Source: an uncultured Prevotella sp.
GTDB taxonomy: Bacteria > Bacteroidota > Bacteroidia > Bacteroidales > Bacteroidaceae
Length of the DNA stretch: 61,510 nt
Direction of reading: 5' to 3'
NCBI GenBank assembly: GCA_900315035.1
Contig: OMXO01000044.1
Coordinates: forward strand, 1-61,510
Shown: positions 31,741 to 50,811 of the stretch, piece by piece
How the letters are laid out: each line of letters opens with the position of its first letter
Numbering within the stretch: position 1 is the stretch's first letter
Notes under the pieces: generated by a model
Databases searched by the model: none
The model's input: the letters and a program-made list of their open reading frames with translations, nothing else
What the model was told of the DNA's origin: nothing
Translations under genes and position numbers: made by a program

Positions 31741-31814
31741 GGTGCGTTAGTTCAGTAGGTTAGAATGCCTGCCTGTCACGCAGGAGGTCACGAGTTCGAA
31801 TCTCGTACGCACCG
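31741..31814 (+). tRNA. tRNA-Asp (anticodon GTC), copy 1
   Basis: Acceptor stem GGTGCGT/ACGCACC with discriminator G; anticodon stem CCTGC/GCAGG enclosing CTGTCAC gives GTC. T-arm contains GTTCGAATC. Identical in sequence to the second copy 25 bp downstream. Confidence 0.96.
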
Positions 31815-31839: not shown

Positions 31840-31913
31840 GGTGCGTTAGTTCAGTAGGTTAGAATGCCTGCCTGTCACGCAGGAGGTCACGAGTTCGAAT
31901 CTCGTACGCACCG
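31840..31913 (+). tRNA. tRNA-Asp (anticodon GTC), copy 2
   Basis: Identical 74-nt duplicate of the preceding tRNA, transcribed from the same promoter and followed by a hairpin terminator. Confidence 0.96.
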
Positions 31914-44475: not shown

Positions 44476-44507
44476 TTTGTTTGTTTCGAAATTATTGATT
44501 AGTTTTG
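44476..44507 (+). promoter_or_regulatory. leu operon promoter
   Basis: -33 TTTG (44476-44479), 20-nt spacer, -7 TAGTTTTG (44500-44507). Transcription would begin near 44514, 19 nt before the leader peptide ATG. Confidence 0.82.
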
Positions 44508-44532
44508 CACCCGAAATTTGAAAATAGAACGT

Positions 44533-44613
44533 ATGAAGAGTCTGAATCTAATTAACGGCCTTATTATTATTCGACTGCAGGAAGCAGGCGGAAGTGACAG
44601 GGCGTATCTATAG
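44533..44613 (+). CDS. leuL: leu operon leader peptide, 26 aa, Leu/Ile-rich
   Basis: An ATG-started frame of 26 codons contains five Leu (positions 4, 6, 10, 15, 26) and four Ile (7, 11-13), including three consecutive Ile codons. It starts just after the leuA promoter and ends 25 nt before an intrinsic terminator. Its own 3' half carries CGGAAGTGA (44589-44597), which can pair with the terminator's ascending arm. This is the layout of a ribosome-mediated attenuator: slow translation at Leu/Ile codons would favour the antiterminator. The symbol leuL is given by analogy to enterobacterial leu leaders. Confidence 0.75.
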   Translation: MKSLNLINGLIIIRLQEAGGSDRAYL

Positions 44614-44678
44614 GTCAGATGCAAATACTAAACAATAGGAGCCTTTCTCACTTCCGAGTGTGAAAGGCTCTTTTCTTT
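44589..44678 (+). terminator. leu attenuator: antiterminator and terminator
   Basis: Terminator: GAGCCTTTC (44639-44647) pairs with GAAAGGCTC (44662-44670), with an inner CACT/AGTG helix and a TCCG loop, followed by TTTTCTTT. Antiterminator: CGGAAGTGA (44589-44597) is an exact 9-bp complement of TCACTTCCG (44648-44656), the inner part of the terminator stem, so the two structures exclude each other. It ends 51 nt before leuA. Confidence 0.82.
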
Positions 44679-44728: not shown

Positions 44729-46234
44729 ATGAGTGACAGATTGTTTATTTTCGACACAACACTCCGAGATGGTGAACAGGTTCCTGGATGCCAGCTGAAT
44801 ACGGTTGAGAAGATTCAGGTGGCAAAGGCTCTTGAACAGCTCGGTGTCGATGTGATCGAAGCAGGATTCCCTATTTCAAGTCCTGGCGACTTTAATTCAG
44901 TGATTGAGATCTCGAAGGCTGTTACATGGCCAGTGATCTGTGCACTGACTCGTGCTGTAGAAAAAGATATCGATGTAGCCTTTGAGGCTCTGAAGTATGC
45001 TAAGCACAAGCGTATCCATACTGGTATTGGCACGAGCGACGAACACATTAAGTACAAATTCAATTCCACACGCGAGGAGATTATGGAACGCGCAGTAGCG
45101 GCTACCAAGTATGCCAAACGTTTTGTGGATGACGTAGAGTTTTACTGCGAAGATGCCGGGCGCACGGATAATGAATATCTGGCCCAGATAGTAGAGGCTG
45201 TTATCAAGGCGGGTGCTACTGTTGTGAATATCCCGGATACTACGGGTTATTGTCTGCCACAGGAGTATTACGATAAGATCAAATACCTGAAGGAACATGT
45301 CGATGGGATTGATCGTGCCATTATCTCTACTCATTGCCATAATGATCTGGGTATGGCTACAGCCAATAGTTTCAATGGTGTGATGGCTGGTGCCCGTCAG
45401 GTAGAAGTAACGATTAATGGTATCGGAGAGCGTGCAGGAAACACTTCGCTTGAGGAGATTGCCATGATTCTGAAATGCCACAAAGGCTTGGGCATTGAGA
45501 CGAACATTAATACGACAAAGATCTATCCGACGAGCCGGATGGTCAGTTCTTTGATGAATATGCCTGTGCAACCCAATAAGGCTATTGTTGGTCGTAACGC
45601 TTTTGCTCATTCTAGTGGCATTCATCAGGATGGTGTCCTGAAGAATGTACATACGTATGAGATTATGGATCCTAAAGATGTTGGTATCGACGATAACACT
45701 ATCGTATTGACTGCACGCAGTGGACGTGCAGCGCTTAAACATCGTCTGCATGTCAACGGAGTCGATCTCGAAGAAGAGAAGCTGGATAAAGTCTATGAGA
45801 AGTTCCTGATATTGGCCGACCAGAAGAAAGAGGTTAACGATGCTGATGTGTTGATGCTTGCAGGCGCAGACATGGCTGAAGCACATGCTGTACGCCTCGA
45901 CTTCCTGCAGGTAACCACAGGAAAAGGTGTGAAGAGTGTGGCATCTATAGGCCTTGACATCAGCGGACAGAAATTCGAGGCAGCAGCTTCGGGCAACGGT
46001 CCAGTTGATGCTGCTATTAAGGCTCTGAAGAAGATCATCATGAAGCAGATGACATTGAAGGAATTTACCATTCAGGCCATCTCGAAAGGTTCTGATGATG
46101 TGGGTAAGGTTCATATGCAAGTGGAATACGACGGTGCCCTTTATTACGGCTTCGGAGCGAATACTGATATTGTGACAGCCAGCGTCGAGGCTTATATCGA
46201 CTGTATCAACAAATTTAAGAAGTCAGAAGAATGA
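44729..46234 (+). CDS. leuA: 2-isopropylmalate synthase
   Basis: The protein has 501 aa. HMGL-like TIM barrel with [13 protein letters not shown], the metal ligands in [10 protein letters not shown] and [17 protein letters not shown] follows, and a C-terminal LeuA regulatory domain (about 390-500) allows leucine feedback. It condenses 2-oxoisovalerate with acetyl-CoA, the first committed step of leucine synthesis. First gene of the attenuator-controlled operon; ATGA overlap with leuC. Confidence 0.95.
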
Positions 46235-47607
46235 ATACGTTATTTGATAAGATTTGGGATAAGCATGTCGTCCAACAGGTGGAAGATGGTCCCACACAAT
46301 TGTATATCGACAGACTTTACTGTCATGAAGTAACTTCCCCGCAGGCATTCGATGGCATGCGGGCACGAGGACTGAAGTGTTTCCGTCCTGACAAGATTTT
46401 CTGCATGCCTGATCACAATACGCCGACACATGATCAGGATAAGCCTATAGCCGACCCTGTATCCAAAAAACAGGTTGACACATTGGCTCAGAATGCAGCC
46501 GAATTTGGTTTGACGCACTACGGAATGATGTCGAAAGACAATGGTATCATTCATGTGGTTGGTCCAGAGAAGGGACTCTCTCTGCCTGGTATGACTATTG
46601 TTTGTGGCGACTCACATACTTCGACTCATGGAGCGATGGGAGCAGTCGCTTTCGGTATTGGTACTTCTGAGGTCGAGATGGTGCTCGCTTCACAGTGTAT
46701 TCTTCAGCAGAAGCCCAAGTCAATGCGTATCAGTATTAATGGTACTTTGCAGAAAGGCGTCACAGCAAAAGATGTAGCCCTTTACCTGATGTCCCAGCTG
46801 ACGACTTCAGGCGCAACAGGCTATTTTGTGGAGTATGCTGGCGATGTGGTGCGTAACCTCTCGATGGAAGGTCGCCTTACGCTTTGTAACCTCTCTATCG
46901 AGATGGGAGCCCGAGGTGGTTTTGTTGCTCCCGACGAGACAACCTTTGAGTATCTGAAAGGTCGAGAGTATGCACCGAAAGGCGATGCTTGGAATCAGGC
47001 GGTGGCCTATTGGAAAACACTCAAGAGTGGTGATGACGCTGTGTTTGATAAAGAACTGATTTTCAGTGCCGAAGACATCGAACCGCGAATTACTTATGGA
47101 ACGAATCCTGGTATGGGTATCGGCATCTCTGAGAGTATTCCTTCTGAGGGCGATGCGAACTTCGAGAAATCCCTTCATTACATGGGATTCAAGCCTGGGC
47201 AGAAACTGCTTGGCACCAAAGTCGACTATGTGTTCTTGGGTGCTTGTACCAACGGACGCATCGAAGACTTCAGGGCTTTTGCCTCGATGGTGAAAGGTCG
47301 CCGCAAGGCTGACGATGTGATTGCCTGGCTTGTACCTGGCTCATGGGCTGTAGATCGCCAGATACGTGAAGAAGGTCTTGATAAGATTCTCGAGTCGGCA
47401 GGCTTCGAAATCCGTCAGCCAGGCTGTTCGGCATGTCTGGCTATGAATGATGACAAGATACCCGCAGGCAAACTTTCGGTATCTACCTCAAATAGAAATT
47501 TTGAAGGCCGTCAGGGACCTGGTGCCCGCACCGTCCTTGCTTCACCTTTAGTTGCAGCCGCTGCTGCCGTCACAGGAGTAATCACTGATCCAAGAATACT
47601 ATTATGA
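46231..47607 (+). CDS. leuC: 3-isopropylmalate dehydratase large subunit
   Basis: The protein has 458 aa, the usual LeuC length. Aconitase-family 4Fe-4S ligands appear as G-A-C-T-N-G-R and [21 protein letters not shown] and the N-terminal D-H-N-T-P-T are also typical. With LeuD it isomerises 2- to 3-isopropylmalate, and in organisms using the citramalate route also citramalate. Overlaps leuA and leuD by 4 bp. Confidence 0.95.
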
Positions 47608-48200
47608 AACAGAAATTCAACGTTATAACATCCACCTGCGTACCACTTCCTTTAGAGAATGTGGATACCGATCAGATCATCCCTGCCCGTTTCCTGAAAG
47701 CGACGACTCGCGAGGAGAGTTTCTTTGGCGACAATCTTTTCCGTGATTGGCGCTATCAGGCCGATGGCACCCCGAACAAGGACTTTGTGCTTAACAATCC
47801 TACTTATAGTGGCTGTATCCTGGTAGCCGGCAAAAACTTCGGCTCTGGGTCTTCACGAGAGCATGCTGCCTGGGCTATCGCAGGCTATGGCTTCAGGGTT
47901 GTCATCAGTAGTTTCTTTGCAGATATTCATAAGAATAACGAACTGAATAATTTCGTCTTGCCCGTACAGGTCAGCGATGGCTTTCTGGCAGAGTTGTTCG
48001 CCAGTATCCAGAATGATCCAAAGACAGAAGTGGAAGTTGATCTCCCCAATCAGACTGTCACGAATAAGGCTACAGGTCATTGTGAGCACTTCGACATTAA
48101 TGGCTATAAGAAACACTGTCTGATGAATGGTCTTGACGATATCGATTTCCTGGTTGGGAATAAAGAAAAGACAGAACTATGGGAACAGCAGAACAAGTAG
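47604..48200 (+). CDS. leuD: 3-isopropylmalate dehydratase small subunit
   Basis: The protein has 198 aa. [13 protein letters not shown] near the start and [11 protein letters not shown] (substrate-binding) mark the swivel domain of the aconitase family. Forms the heterodimer with LeuC. Its 3' end overlaps the start of the next gene by 22 bp. Confidence 0.95.
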
Positions 48201-49753
48201 GGAAGTACCAGAAGCTCCAGCCTTTTGTAGAGATCATGGACTCTACATTGCGTGATGGAGAACAGACCAATGGTGTCAGTTTCCTGCCTCATGAGAAACT
48301 GATTATCGCCCGTATGCTCCTCAACGATCTCAATGTCGATCGTATAGAGGTTGCTTCAGCCAGAGTCTCAGAAGGCGAGAAAGAGGCTGTATCTATGATC
48401 TGCCGCTATGCGGAGAAGATTGAGAAAGCCGATCGGGTAGAGGTGCTGGGGTTCGTAGATGGCGGACAGAGTGTTGATTGGGTGGTCAGTTGTGGCTGCA
48501 AGACTATCAATCTCTTGGCGAAAGGTTCATTGCGTCACTGTCAGGAACAACTTCAGAAGACACCAGATGAACATCTTGAGGATATCCGCCGCGAAGTAAA
48601 ATATGCCCGTAGCCAGGGACTCACTGTGAACCTCTATCTTGAAGACTGGTCTAACGGCATGAAGGATTCGCCTTCTTATATCTATGATTTGATGGATGCG
48701 CTTTGCGACATCGGTATCCGCAGGTTTATGCTGCCCGATACGCTTGGTATTATGAATCCCTTGCAGTGTATCGAGTACTTCAGGAAGATGATCAAACGCT
48801 ATCCTGATGCCCACTTTGACTTTCATGCTCATAACGATTACGATCTCGCTGTGTCCAACTCTCTGGCGGCTGTACTCAGTGGGGCTAAAGGACTTCACGT
48901 GACTGTCAACGGCTTAGGCGAGCGTTGCGGTAATGCACCTCTGTCAAGTGTTCAGGTGATTCTCAAGGATCAGTTCCATGCGAAGACGAATATCAATGAG
49001 AACAAACTCAACGATATCTCGCGACTCGTAGAGAGTTATAGCGGCATCGCTGTGGCACCCAATCAGCCGATTATCGGCGACAATGTCTTCACGCAGGTAG
49101 CGGGTGTTCATGCCGATGGTGATAAGAAGAATAATCTCTATCAGAATGAACTTGTGCCTGAGCGGTTCGGACGCCGACGGGAGTATGCGCTCGGCAAGAA
49201 CAGCGGAAAGGCGAATATTGCCAAGAATCTGGAGGAACTGGGGCTGGAACTGACACCAGAACAAACCCGAAAAGTGACGCAGCGCATCACGGAGTTGGGT
49301 GACAAGAAGGAGATTGTGACTCAGGAAGATCTGCCGTTCATCGTCAGCGACGTCTTGAAGCATGATGCACCCGAGGATAAGGTCAAACTGCTCAGTTATG
49401 TGGTTTCTACTGCCTACGGTCTGAAGCCTGGTGCCAATATCAAGGTTGAAATCAATGGTCAGGCTTATGAGGCGAGTGCCACTGGTGATGGTCAGTATGA
49501 CGCCTTCGTCAAGTCTCTCCGCTATATCTATAAGAAATATCTGGGACGCACGTTCCCTATCCTTCAGAACTACGCTGTTACTATTCCTCCTGGCGGACGT
49601 ACCGATGCCTTGGTGCAGACCGTCATCACTTGGAACGATAATGGTAAGATTCTCCGCACCAGAGGATTGGATGCCGACCAGACGGAGGCTGCCATCAAGG
49701 CTACTTTTAAGATGTTGAACATATTTGAAAACGATAATAAGAACGAATTATGA
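48179..49753 (+). CDS. cimA: alpha-isopropylmalate/citramalate synthase family protein, probable citramalate synthase
   Basis: The protein has 524 aa and is a second LeuA-type enzyme in the same operon. It shows [27 protein letters not shown] (metal-binding His) and [11 protein letters not shown], then a C-terminal LeuA-type dimerisation and regulatory domain. The [10 protein letters not shown] variant differs from leuA. A second, non-identical synthase beside leuCDB is best explained as citramalate synthase feeding 2-oxobutyrate for isoleucine; the Ile-rich attenuator fits. Specificity is not proven by sequence. Confidence 0.7.
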
Positions 49754-50811
49754 AATTGAAAATTGCGATTCTCGAGGGCGATGGTATCGGACCTGAGATT
49801 ATGAAACAAGGTGTCGCTGTGCTCGATGCGATAGCCGAGAAGTGTGGACACCAGTTTGAATACGAGGCAGCCATCTGCGGCGCTCATGCCATCGATGAGG
49901 TAGGAGAACCTTATCCCGATGCTACTCATGAGGTGTGTATGCGAGCCGATGCGGTTCTTTTCGCTGCTGTCGGTGACTTGAAATACGATAATAACCCGAC
50001 GGCAAAGGTTCGTCCTGAGACTGGTCTTCTGGCAATGCGTAAGAAACTTGGACTCTATGCCAACGTACGTCCTGTTGCAACCTTCGACTGTCTGCTTCAT
50101 AAATCACCTCTGAAAGATGAACTGATTCGTGGTGCCGACTTCGTGGTGCTTCGCGAACTCACTGGTGGCATGTATTTCGGCGACAAGTATCAGGATAACG
50201 ACAAGGCGTATGACACAGATATCTACACCCGTCCTGAGATAGAGCGTATCGTGAAGTTAGGTTTCGAGATGGCTATGAAACGCCATAAGCACCTGACAGT
50301 TGTTGACAAGGCGAATGTCTTGGCCAGTTCTCGTCTGTGGCGCCAGATAGCCAAAGAGATAGAGCCCCAATATCCTGAGGTCACTACCGATTACATGTTT
50401 ATCGATAATGCCTCGATGCGAGTACTCACAGAACCTCGTTTCTTCGACGTCATCGTCACAGAGAACACCTTTGGCGATATCCTGACAGACGAGACAGCAT
50501 GCATCACGGGATCGATGGGTCTTCAGCCATCTGCATCCTTGGGTGAACATACCCCGCTCTTCGAACCTGTTCACGGTTCGTGGCCGCAGGCCGCAGGTCA
50601 GAACCTCGCCAATCCTCTGGCACAGATCCTCTCTGCTGCGATGCTCCTCGAGCATTTCGGACTCGAGAAAGAAGGAGCCCTTATCCGTGAGGCTGTCAAC
50701 GCCTCTCTCGATGCCAATGTACGTACGCCAGAGATTCAGGTCGAGGGTGGCGCGAAATACGGCACGAAGGAAGTGGGCGAGTGGATTGTGAACTATATCC
50801 GTCATGCGTAA
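49750..50811 (+). CDS. leuB: 3-isopropylmalate dehydrogenase
   Basis: The protein has 353 aa. Beta-decarboxylating dehydrogenase family: [10 protein letters not shown] at the start, [12 protein letters not shown] substrate loop, [13 protein letters not shown] and the NAD region D-I-L-T-D-E and H-G-S-W-P-Q-A-A-G. It oxidises 3-isopropylmalate to the leucine keto acid (and methylmalate in the citramalate route). ATGA overlap with the preceding synthase and an 8-bp overlap with the next gene. Confidence 0.95.

Follow-up and report, generated by a model that had tools for sequence, protein, structure and literature searches.

The window analysed here, 61,510 nucleotides of DNA from an uncultured Prevotella sp. 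(contig OMXO01000044.1, forward strand), carries a leu operon, leuA-leuC-leuD-cimA-leuB, in which each gene overlaps its successor. A putative attenuator precedes it at 44476-44678 on the + strand. The features of the locus are as follows.

44476..44507, + strand: promoter, with TTTG at 44476 or 44480 and TAGTTTTG at 44500-44507, which we take to be Bacteroides-type -33/-7 boxes
44533..44613, + strand: leader peptide ORF, with ATG at 44533-44535, 26 codons (MKSLNLINGLIIIRLQEAGGSDRAYL) and the stop codon TAG at 44611-44613
44542..44577, + strand: control region, codons 4-15, with Leu or Ile at codons 4, 6, 7, 10-13 and 15, the last being CTG at 44575-44577
44558..44582, + strand: segment 1 (protector), from the predicted fold only and with approximate limits; overlaps the Ile codons, partner of segment 2
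44589..44597, + strand: segment 2, antiterminator 5' arm, CGGAAGTGA
44602..44608, + strand: candidate RNA polymerase pause element, GCGTATC; tentative, loose version only
44639..44678, + strand: intrinsic terminator (segments 3 and 4) with a T-rich tail, -20.9 kcal/mol
44648..44656, + strand: segment 3 core, antiterminator 3' arm, TCACTTCCG, inside the terminator 5' arm and loop; segment 2 is its exact 9-bp reverse complement
44729..46234, + strand: leuA, 2-isopropylmalate synthase
46231..47607, + strand: leuC
47604..48200, + strand: leuD
48179..49753, + strand: cimA-like gene, citramalate synthase (best family NF042433)
49750..50811, + strand: leuB

Direct reading of the leader gives five Leu codons (4, 6, 10, 15 and 26) and four Ile codons (7, 11, 12 and 13), including an Ile triplet at codons 11-13, and the last Leu/Ile codon of the control region starts 15 nt upstream of GGAAGTG. 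The terminator stem pairs 44639-44652 with 44657-44670 around one T-T mismatch and ends in the tail TTTTCTTT; it lies within the 115 nt that separate the leader stop from the leuA start. The promoter, the 26-codon leader, the terminator and the 9-bp complement described in an earlier note on this DNA all hold at their coordinates. As a whole, the leader (191 nt) has a predicted folding energy of -56.1 kcal/mol, compared with an average of -40.5 for shuffled sequences (z = -3.8; 0/200 shuffles as good). A generic sigma-70/terminator scanner picked up neither promoter nor terminator at the site, probably because the promoter departs from the sigma-70 consensus and the terminator stem holds a mismatch. 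At the gathering score, neither an Rfam leader family (Leu_leader or others) at the site nor the T-box model anywhere in the window gave a match. The Rfam matches in the whole window were three tRNAs, among which the adjacent genes at 31741-31814 and 31840-31913 score identically.

The fourth gene gives the operon a second likely end product. Its protein scores best with family NF042433 (631 bits, below the curated cut-off of 950) and reaches 364 bits with the best LeuA-type (isopropylmalate synthase) model. A search of the window's own genome, which is 91.7% complete, returned no match to the threonine deaminase model TIGR01127 at E 1e-20, which suggests that isoleucine is probably made from citramalate via LeuC, LeuD and LeuB. 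The operon would then probably serve leucine and, through citramalate, isoleucine.

Together, these features very probably constitute a ribosome-mediated transcription attenuator that controls leuA-leuC-leuD-cimA-leuB in response to both leucine and isoleucine. The leader combines a cluster of control codons, an intrinsic terminator, a mutually exclusive antiterminator, and a codon placement predicted to leave segment 2 free. Behind RNA polymerase as it transcribes the leader, a ribosome would be translating the 26-codon peptide. Given plenty of both amino acids, it would reach the stop codon beside segment 2 and mask this segment; the terminator would then form from segments 3 and 4, ending the transcript near 44675. 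When charged Leu- or Ile-tRNA is scarce, the ribosome would stall within codons 4-15; at the CTG of codon 15 its leading edge, placed with an assumed footprint size, would stand just short of 44589. Segment 2 could then pair with segment 3 (44589-44597 with 44648-44656), so that no terminator forms and the operon is read. If the leader is not translated, segment 1 would pair with segment 2 and the terminator would form. Stalling, read-through, the starvation response, and the exact edge of the ribosome are what we infer from this arrangement. Folding predictions are consistent with it: with the ribosome at codon 15, the RNA that stays unoccupied adopts the antiterminator fold (-23.0 kcal/mol for the stretch ending at 44656); with the ribosome at the stop codon the terminator forms, and with no ribosome protector and terminator form together, the translation-independent 1:2 protector hairpin being a prediction made for the window alone. 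At full length, the antiterminator and terminator states lie at -25.0 and -27.2 kcal/mol, close enough that the order of events can decide between them.

Conservation was examined in a close set made up of the window and the best 80 of 582 leuA loci, mostly Prevotella or Prevotellaceae by record title. Leader, antiterminator, and terminator occur together in 65/81 loci, as judged from a mismatch motif scan whose output was sorted by eye (64 loci) plus one locus, L046, counted by eye owing to its altered pairing. The leader frame and the 9-bp pairing, whose absence from relatives the earlier note had named as a refutation, are kept in these 65 loci, so that this check did not refute the reading, and are missing from 16/81, one of which (L051) has just 127 nt of upstream sequence. 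The cimA gene follows leuD in 61 of the 64 leader-bearing relatives, the remaining three contigs stopping before that point, and holds the same place in 12 of the 16 loci devoid of the element. Since 16 loci do without it, 12 of them still with cimA, the element is, on this comparison, dispensable. One such locus, L020 (2601-3003), shows by eye a promoter followed directly by an apparent remnant of the terminator 3' arm, CACACTTTGAAAGGCT, and is likely a natural leader deletion.

Among the 65 leader-bearing loci, TAnnTTTG stands at the matching place in 64 (4/65 after one shuffle), with the second promoter box, TTTG, 17-25 nt ahead of it in 59/65. The distance from the start of the last Leu/Ile codon to GGAAGTG is 15 nt in 53/65 loci and 16 nt in 5/65. 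In 8/65 the frame of the leader tail is shifted, so that the stop codon falls inside GGAAGTGA (stop offset +5) with the nucleotides unchanged, which indicates that segment 2 is kept as RNA and not as peptide. Both sides of the pairing appear by eye to be altered in L064 and L046.

Covariation in the two helices, which the earlier note had also proposed as a check, was examined at two evolutionary depths. Among the close relatives it is evident for the terminator, with pair-keeping two-sided changes at 5/12 pairs (16 cells versus 4.1 in shuffled data). The close-set antiterminator, which pairs in 95.4% of the cells of the alignment (A1) and hardly varies, gave a weak signal, two of five measures failing to set it apart from most shuffles (439/500 as high); because it is nearly invariant, its covariation support comes from distant genomes. 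RNAalifold recovers only the antiterminator from A1; the terminator is missed because MAFFT placed its 3' arm out of register in some sequences. At the level of the order, a MAFFT alignment of 47 of 80 usable sequences, picked by eye for alignability, a choice that favours pairing, has 85.0% of antiterminator cells paired and two-sided changes at 9/10 pairs. The 32 two-sided cells in this alignment compare with 12.6 +/- 2.8 in shuffled data (0/500 as high); sliding the partner gives no more than 16.

Two overlapping samples of the order, with 119 and 391 genomes, formed the wider survey, and leuA was found in 49 (E 1e-80) and 167 (E 1e-150) of them, respectively; 46 of the 49, 100 further loci from the second list, and the window make up 147 leuA loci. 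A leader was called when an ORF of 10-60 codons held at least 6 Leu/Ile in 12 codons and its stop lay at most 6 nt into, and at most 110 nt before, a terminator of -9 kcal/mol or better. The threshold of 6 was picked after exploratory passes, and the shuffled and antisense controls were run under the same rule. Under that rule, 82/147 loci carry a leader plus terminator, against 0, 2, and 4 of 147 in three shuffles and 2/147 on the antisense strand. A threshold of at least 8 Leu/Ile in 12 codons, applied to the ORF, gives 60/147 upstreams versus 3/147 antisense. The pairing score over the 82 loci is 17.6 versus 9.8 shuffled, and only 32 of them individually exceed all 40 shuffles. Among 79 order-level loci, the complement begins 13-18 nt downstream of the point where the last control codon starts in 44 and at another distance in 23, and 12 have no exact complement of at least 6 nt. 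The antiterminator sequence itself varies by lineage (GGAAGTGAG, GGAGTGAG, TGGAAGCGA, TAGTAAG, CTGAGAATGG, and others), with complementarity mostly preserved. Six loci that passed some rule (L186, L232, L193, L216, L219, and L305) look like chance; L186 and L232 stay in the codon-content counts despite this. Outside the order, a structural detector left 28/29 leuA loci without a leader, its sole call (L141) having an unrelated peptide; leuA may sit inside larger operons in those genomes, which makes the comparison an uneven one.

CTA makes up 2% of the Leu codons in 31 long ORFs of the window and 28% of those in 64 of the 65 close leaders, including that of the window. Averaged over 29 families, its share of Leu codons is 33% in the leader versus 2% in the own leuA, and it is commoner in the leader in 27/29. 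The leu leader of Salmonella also has CUA as its control codon, and a swap of CUA for CUG lowered its sensitivity (PMC1183508). The architecture of ribosome-mediated attenuation that the earlier note recognized is thus supported by conservation, spacing, covariation, and codon bias.

A more specific expectation concerns the mix of Leu and Ile codons, which the earlier note read as sensing both end products: a leader that reports what its operon makes would carry codons in keeping with the pathway wiring. Where cimA stands in the operon, all 70 leaders have at least 2 Ile within the part counted (Ile share 0.29-0.88), although chance may account for a few of the 70 ORFs, e.g., L232. In three genomes where LeuA itself is the only cimA match (G021, G312, and G372), the leaders have 0, 0, and 1 Ile; the threonine-deaminase matches of these genomes reach 489, 318, and 315 bits, the latter two below the model cut-off. 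Where leuA stands apart from leuCD and cimA lies elsewhere (G261, G443, G464, and G052), the leaders hold 0, 1, 1, and 2 Ile versus 6-7 Leu, with only 3.0 and 3.9 kb of downstream sequence visible in G443 and G052, respectively, and a partial cimA match in G052. G004 and G112, in which leuA, leuC, and leuD are together, cimA is elsewhere, and there is no deaminase match, have leaders with 5 and 4 Ile.

The exception is L179 (genome G049), where leuA-C-D run up to the contig end, cimA is elsewhere, and the leader has 1 Ile among 6 Leu/Ile codons. At this locus, leuC, leuD, and leuA are 85%, 84%, and 75% identical to those of the window, a wider gap than in most of the genomes compared; transfer or a mixed assembly is possible. 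The Ile-rich leader of L181 (G065) is unclassifiable, its contig ending after leuA, and was kept in the rank test, which with the odd loci included gave P = 0.0003 (74 versus 8 leaders), a value that overstates significance because the sequences are related. Three Leu-rich ORFs that lack a strong terminator (L279, L281, and L217) stayed outside the counts and would fit the trend; in L279 (G284) and L281 (G351), long ORFs with 14 and 16 Leu, trailed by weak hairpins only, precede leuA-C-D-B in genomes with no cimA match.

G261 extends the pattern to a split arrangement. Its stand-alone leuA (L278) is the one whose leader has no Ile, and its other operon (L311), ordered ilvD, ilvB, an unassigned 180-aa protein, ilvC, leuC, leuD, cimA (below cut-off), leuB, is preceded by an Ile/Val/Leu leader, MNCFSLHIIVVIILLLC, with a 10-bp antiterminator. 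G261 alone backs this arrangement, since the 13 further genomes whose leuC-leuD-cimA operon is likewise separate (L313-L316 and L319-L327) showed no convincing leader before leuC. For stand-alone cimA (L308, L309, L310, L312, L317, and L318), the scan returned Ile/Leu/Val-rich ORFs in 3/6 (L309, L312, and L318), and none was judged a leader in the five of six upstreams inspected. Leader codon content thus appears mostly to follow pathway wiring, with one exception (L179) and one unclassifiable locus (L181). Together with the cimA-like gene in the operon, this comparison across genomes backs the proposal that the window's leader senses both amino acids.

Three other readings of the element deserve weighing. 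The attenuator might answer to leucine only, the Ile codons being filler that allows segment 1 to pair with segment 2. Segment 1 does overlap the ATTATTATTCGACTGC stretch in the predicted fold, and close relatives show strong nucleotide conservation of that stretch. Such filler would hardly be expected to recur as at least 2 Ile in every cimA-operon leader despite differing surrounding RNA, to dwindle to 0-1 in the three genomes devoid of cimA, and to persist at 4-5 in two genomes with leuA-C-D together and cimA elsewhere, even if L179 differs. We therefore consider a leucine-only switch improbable.

A conditional terminator set by a protein, a small RNA, or a ligand, with the ORF incidental or encoding a functional peptide, would be in keeping with the 16/81 loci that lack the element and retain leuA, mostly with the rest of the operon, and the Rfam searches speak neither for nor against it. 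The CTA bias, the 15-nt spacing, the shifted tail frames with the RNA kept, and the pathway-matched codons would all be unexpected on that account, and we hold it to be very unlikely. Short leader ORFs near genes can also act by reinitiation (PMC4833913), so that the leader might affect ribosome access to leuA alone and leave transcription untouched. The distance from the leader stop to leuA, with an intrinsic terminator inside it, and the pair-keeping changes in the terminator stem argue against such translational coupling, which has hardly any credibility here. Ribosome-mediated attenuation is preferred because it explains the peptide, the fixed spacing, and the competing helices, as well as how all three evolved.

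The mechanism is of a known kind and apparently widespread in the order. The enterobacterial leu attenuator consists of a promoter, a short peptide with Leu codons, and an alternative antiterminator and terminator ahead of leuA. The window shares with leuL of the Salmonella and E. coli leu operons the promoter, a Leu-codon peptide including the rare CUA, the antiterminator/terminator pair, and the position before leuA; it adds Ile codons, the cimA-like gene, and a Bacteroides-type promoter, and no Rfam model recognises it. In the ilvGMEDA and ilvB attenuators, which stand before ilv genes, one peptide senses several branched-chain amino acids. The likeness to the window lies in this multi-amino-acid peptide, whereas the enzymes shared between pathways in the window are LeuC, LeuD, and LeuB. 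Flavobacterium psychrophilum belongs to a different order from the organism of the window, and Bacteroides thetaiotaomicron to the same order. For F. psychrophilum, a member of the same phylum, strong clues have been reported that leader peptides attenuate amino-acid operons, with the operons and codons unnamed in the text compared (PMC9723704). In B. thetaiotaomicron, small ORFs in long 5' UTRs have been described as reminiscent of leader peptides, the example being the hypothetical protein BT_4401; the passages compared name no leu, ilv, or his operon, and the word "leucine" is absent from the main text (PMC7366714). The LEU element of Actinobacteria shares a Leu-codon leader ORF before leuA and differs, in the text compared, by a candidate pseudoknot in which the Leu codons pair with the Shine-Dalgarno box, where the window has a terminator switch (PMC1262725). 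CimA and IlvA variants of branched-chain synthesis are listed for gut genomes in a study whose compared text lacks the string "attenuat" (PMC9026213), and "Bacteroid" is absent from the main text of Naville and Gautheret 2010 (PMC2965389). In the open-access texts compared, we found no leu, ilv, or his leader peptides described for Bacteroidales. This agrees with the earlier note, which knew of none described from Prevotella, but published hints exist for both the phylum and the order. What seems new is the spread in the order, the joint sensing of Leu and Ile at a cimA-containing leu operon, and the match between codons and pathway.

A leader-peptide switch at leu, ilv, and his operons in many genomes of the order would be a regulatory layer readable from sequence, its codons predicting the amino acids sensed by each operon. 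To our knowledge, the control of amino-acid synthesis in the dominant anaerobes of gut and rumen is poorly known. The link between codon content and the isoleucine route would allow attenuation theory to be tested on evolutionary change, and predicted CimA function to be checked from genome sequence.

Similar leaders also occur before ilvD and hisG in relatives, where terminators follow many of the peptides. We inspected 30 loci per gene (L328-L356 and L207 for ilvD, L357-L386 for hisG), taken from 31 (ilvD) and 35 (hisG) matching genomes among 60. At least 9 Ile/Val/Leu in 14 codons, with about 4 Val each, were found upstream of ilvD in 21/30 (antisense 2/30), and at least 4 His in 14 codons upstream of hisG in 23/30 (antisense 0/30). 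As a cross-check, His-rich peptides are absent from the ilvD loci and occur in 0/147 leuA upstreams, and none of the hisG loci passes the Ile/Val/Leu threshold. The window's own genome has no attenuator before ilvD (L207) or hisG (L365), so that any general claim rests on its relatives. With this in mind, we lean towards the view that the leu, ilv, and his operons of Bacteroidales share a general system of leader-peptide attenuators whose codons are rewritten when pathways are rewired. If so, Ile codons would track whether the leuCD genes in a leuA operon serve citramalate-derived isoleucine.

Attenuation works only if the first ribosome follows RNA polymerase closely, and such a system would therefore imply that transcription and translation are coupled early in these bacteria; the switch would offer a natural reporter of this coupling in Bacteroidota. 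A GTRTG-like element, possibly a polymerase pause that may synchronise the two machineries, follows segment 2 in 20/64 order-level linkers (3.3 expected) and is likewise present in 11/43 linkers at places where the leader has already stopped (2.0 expected).
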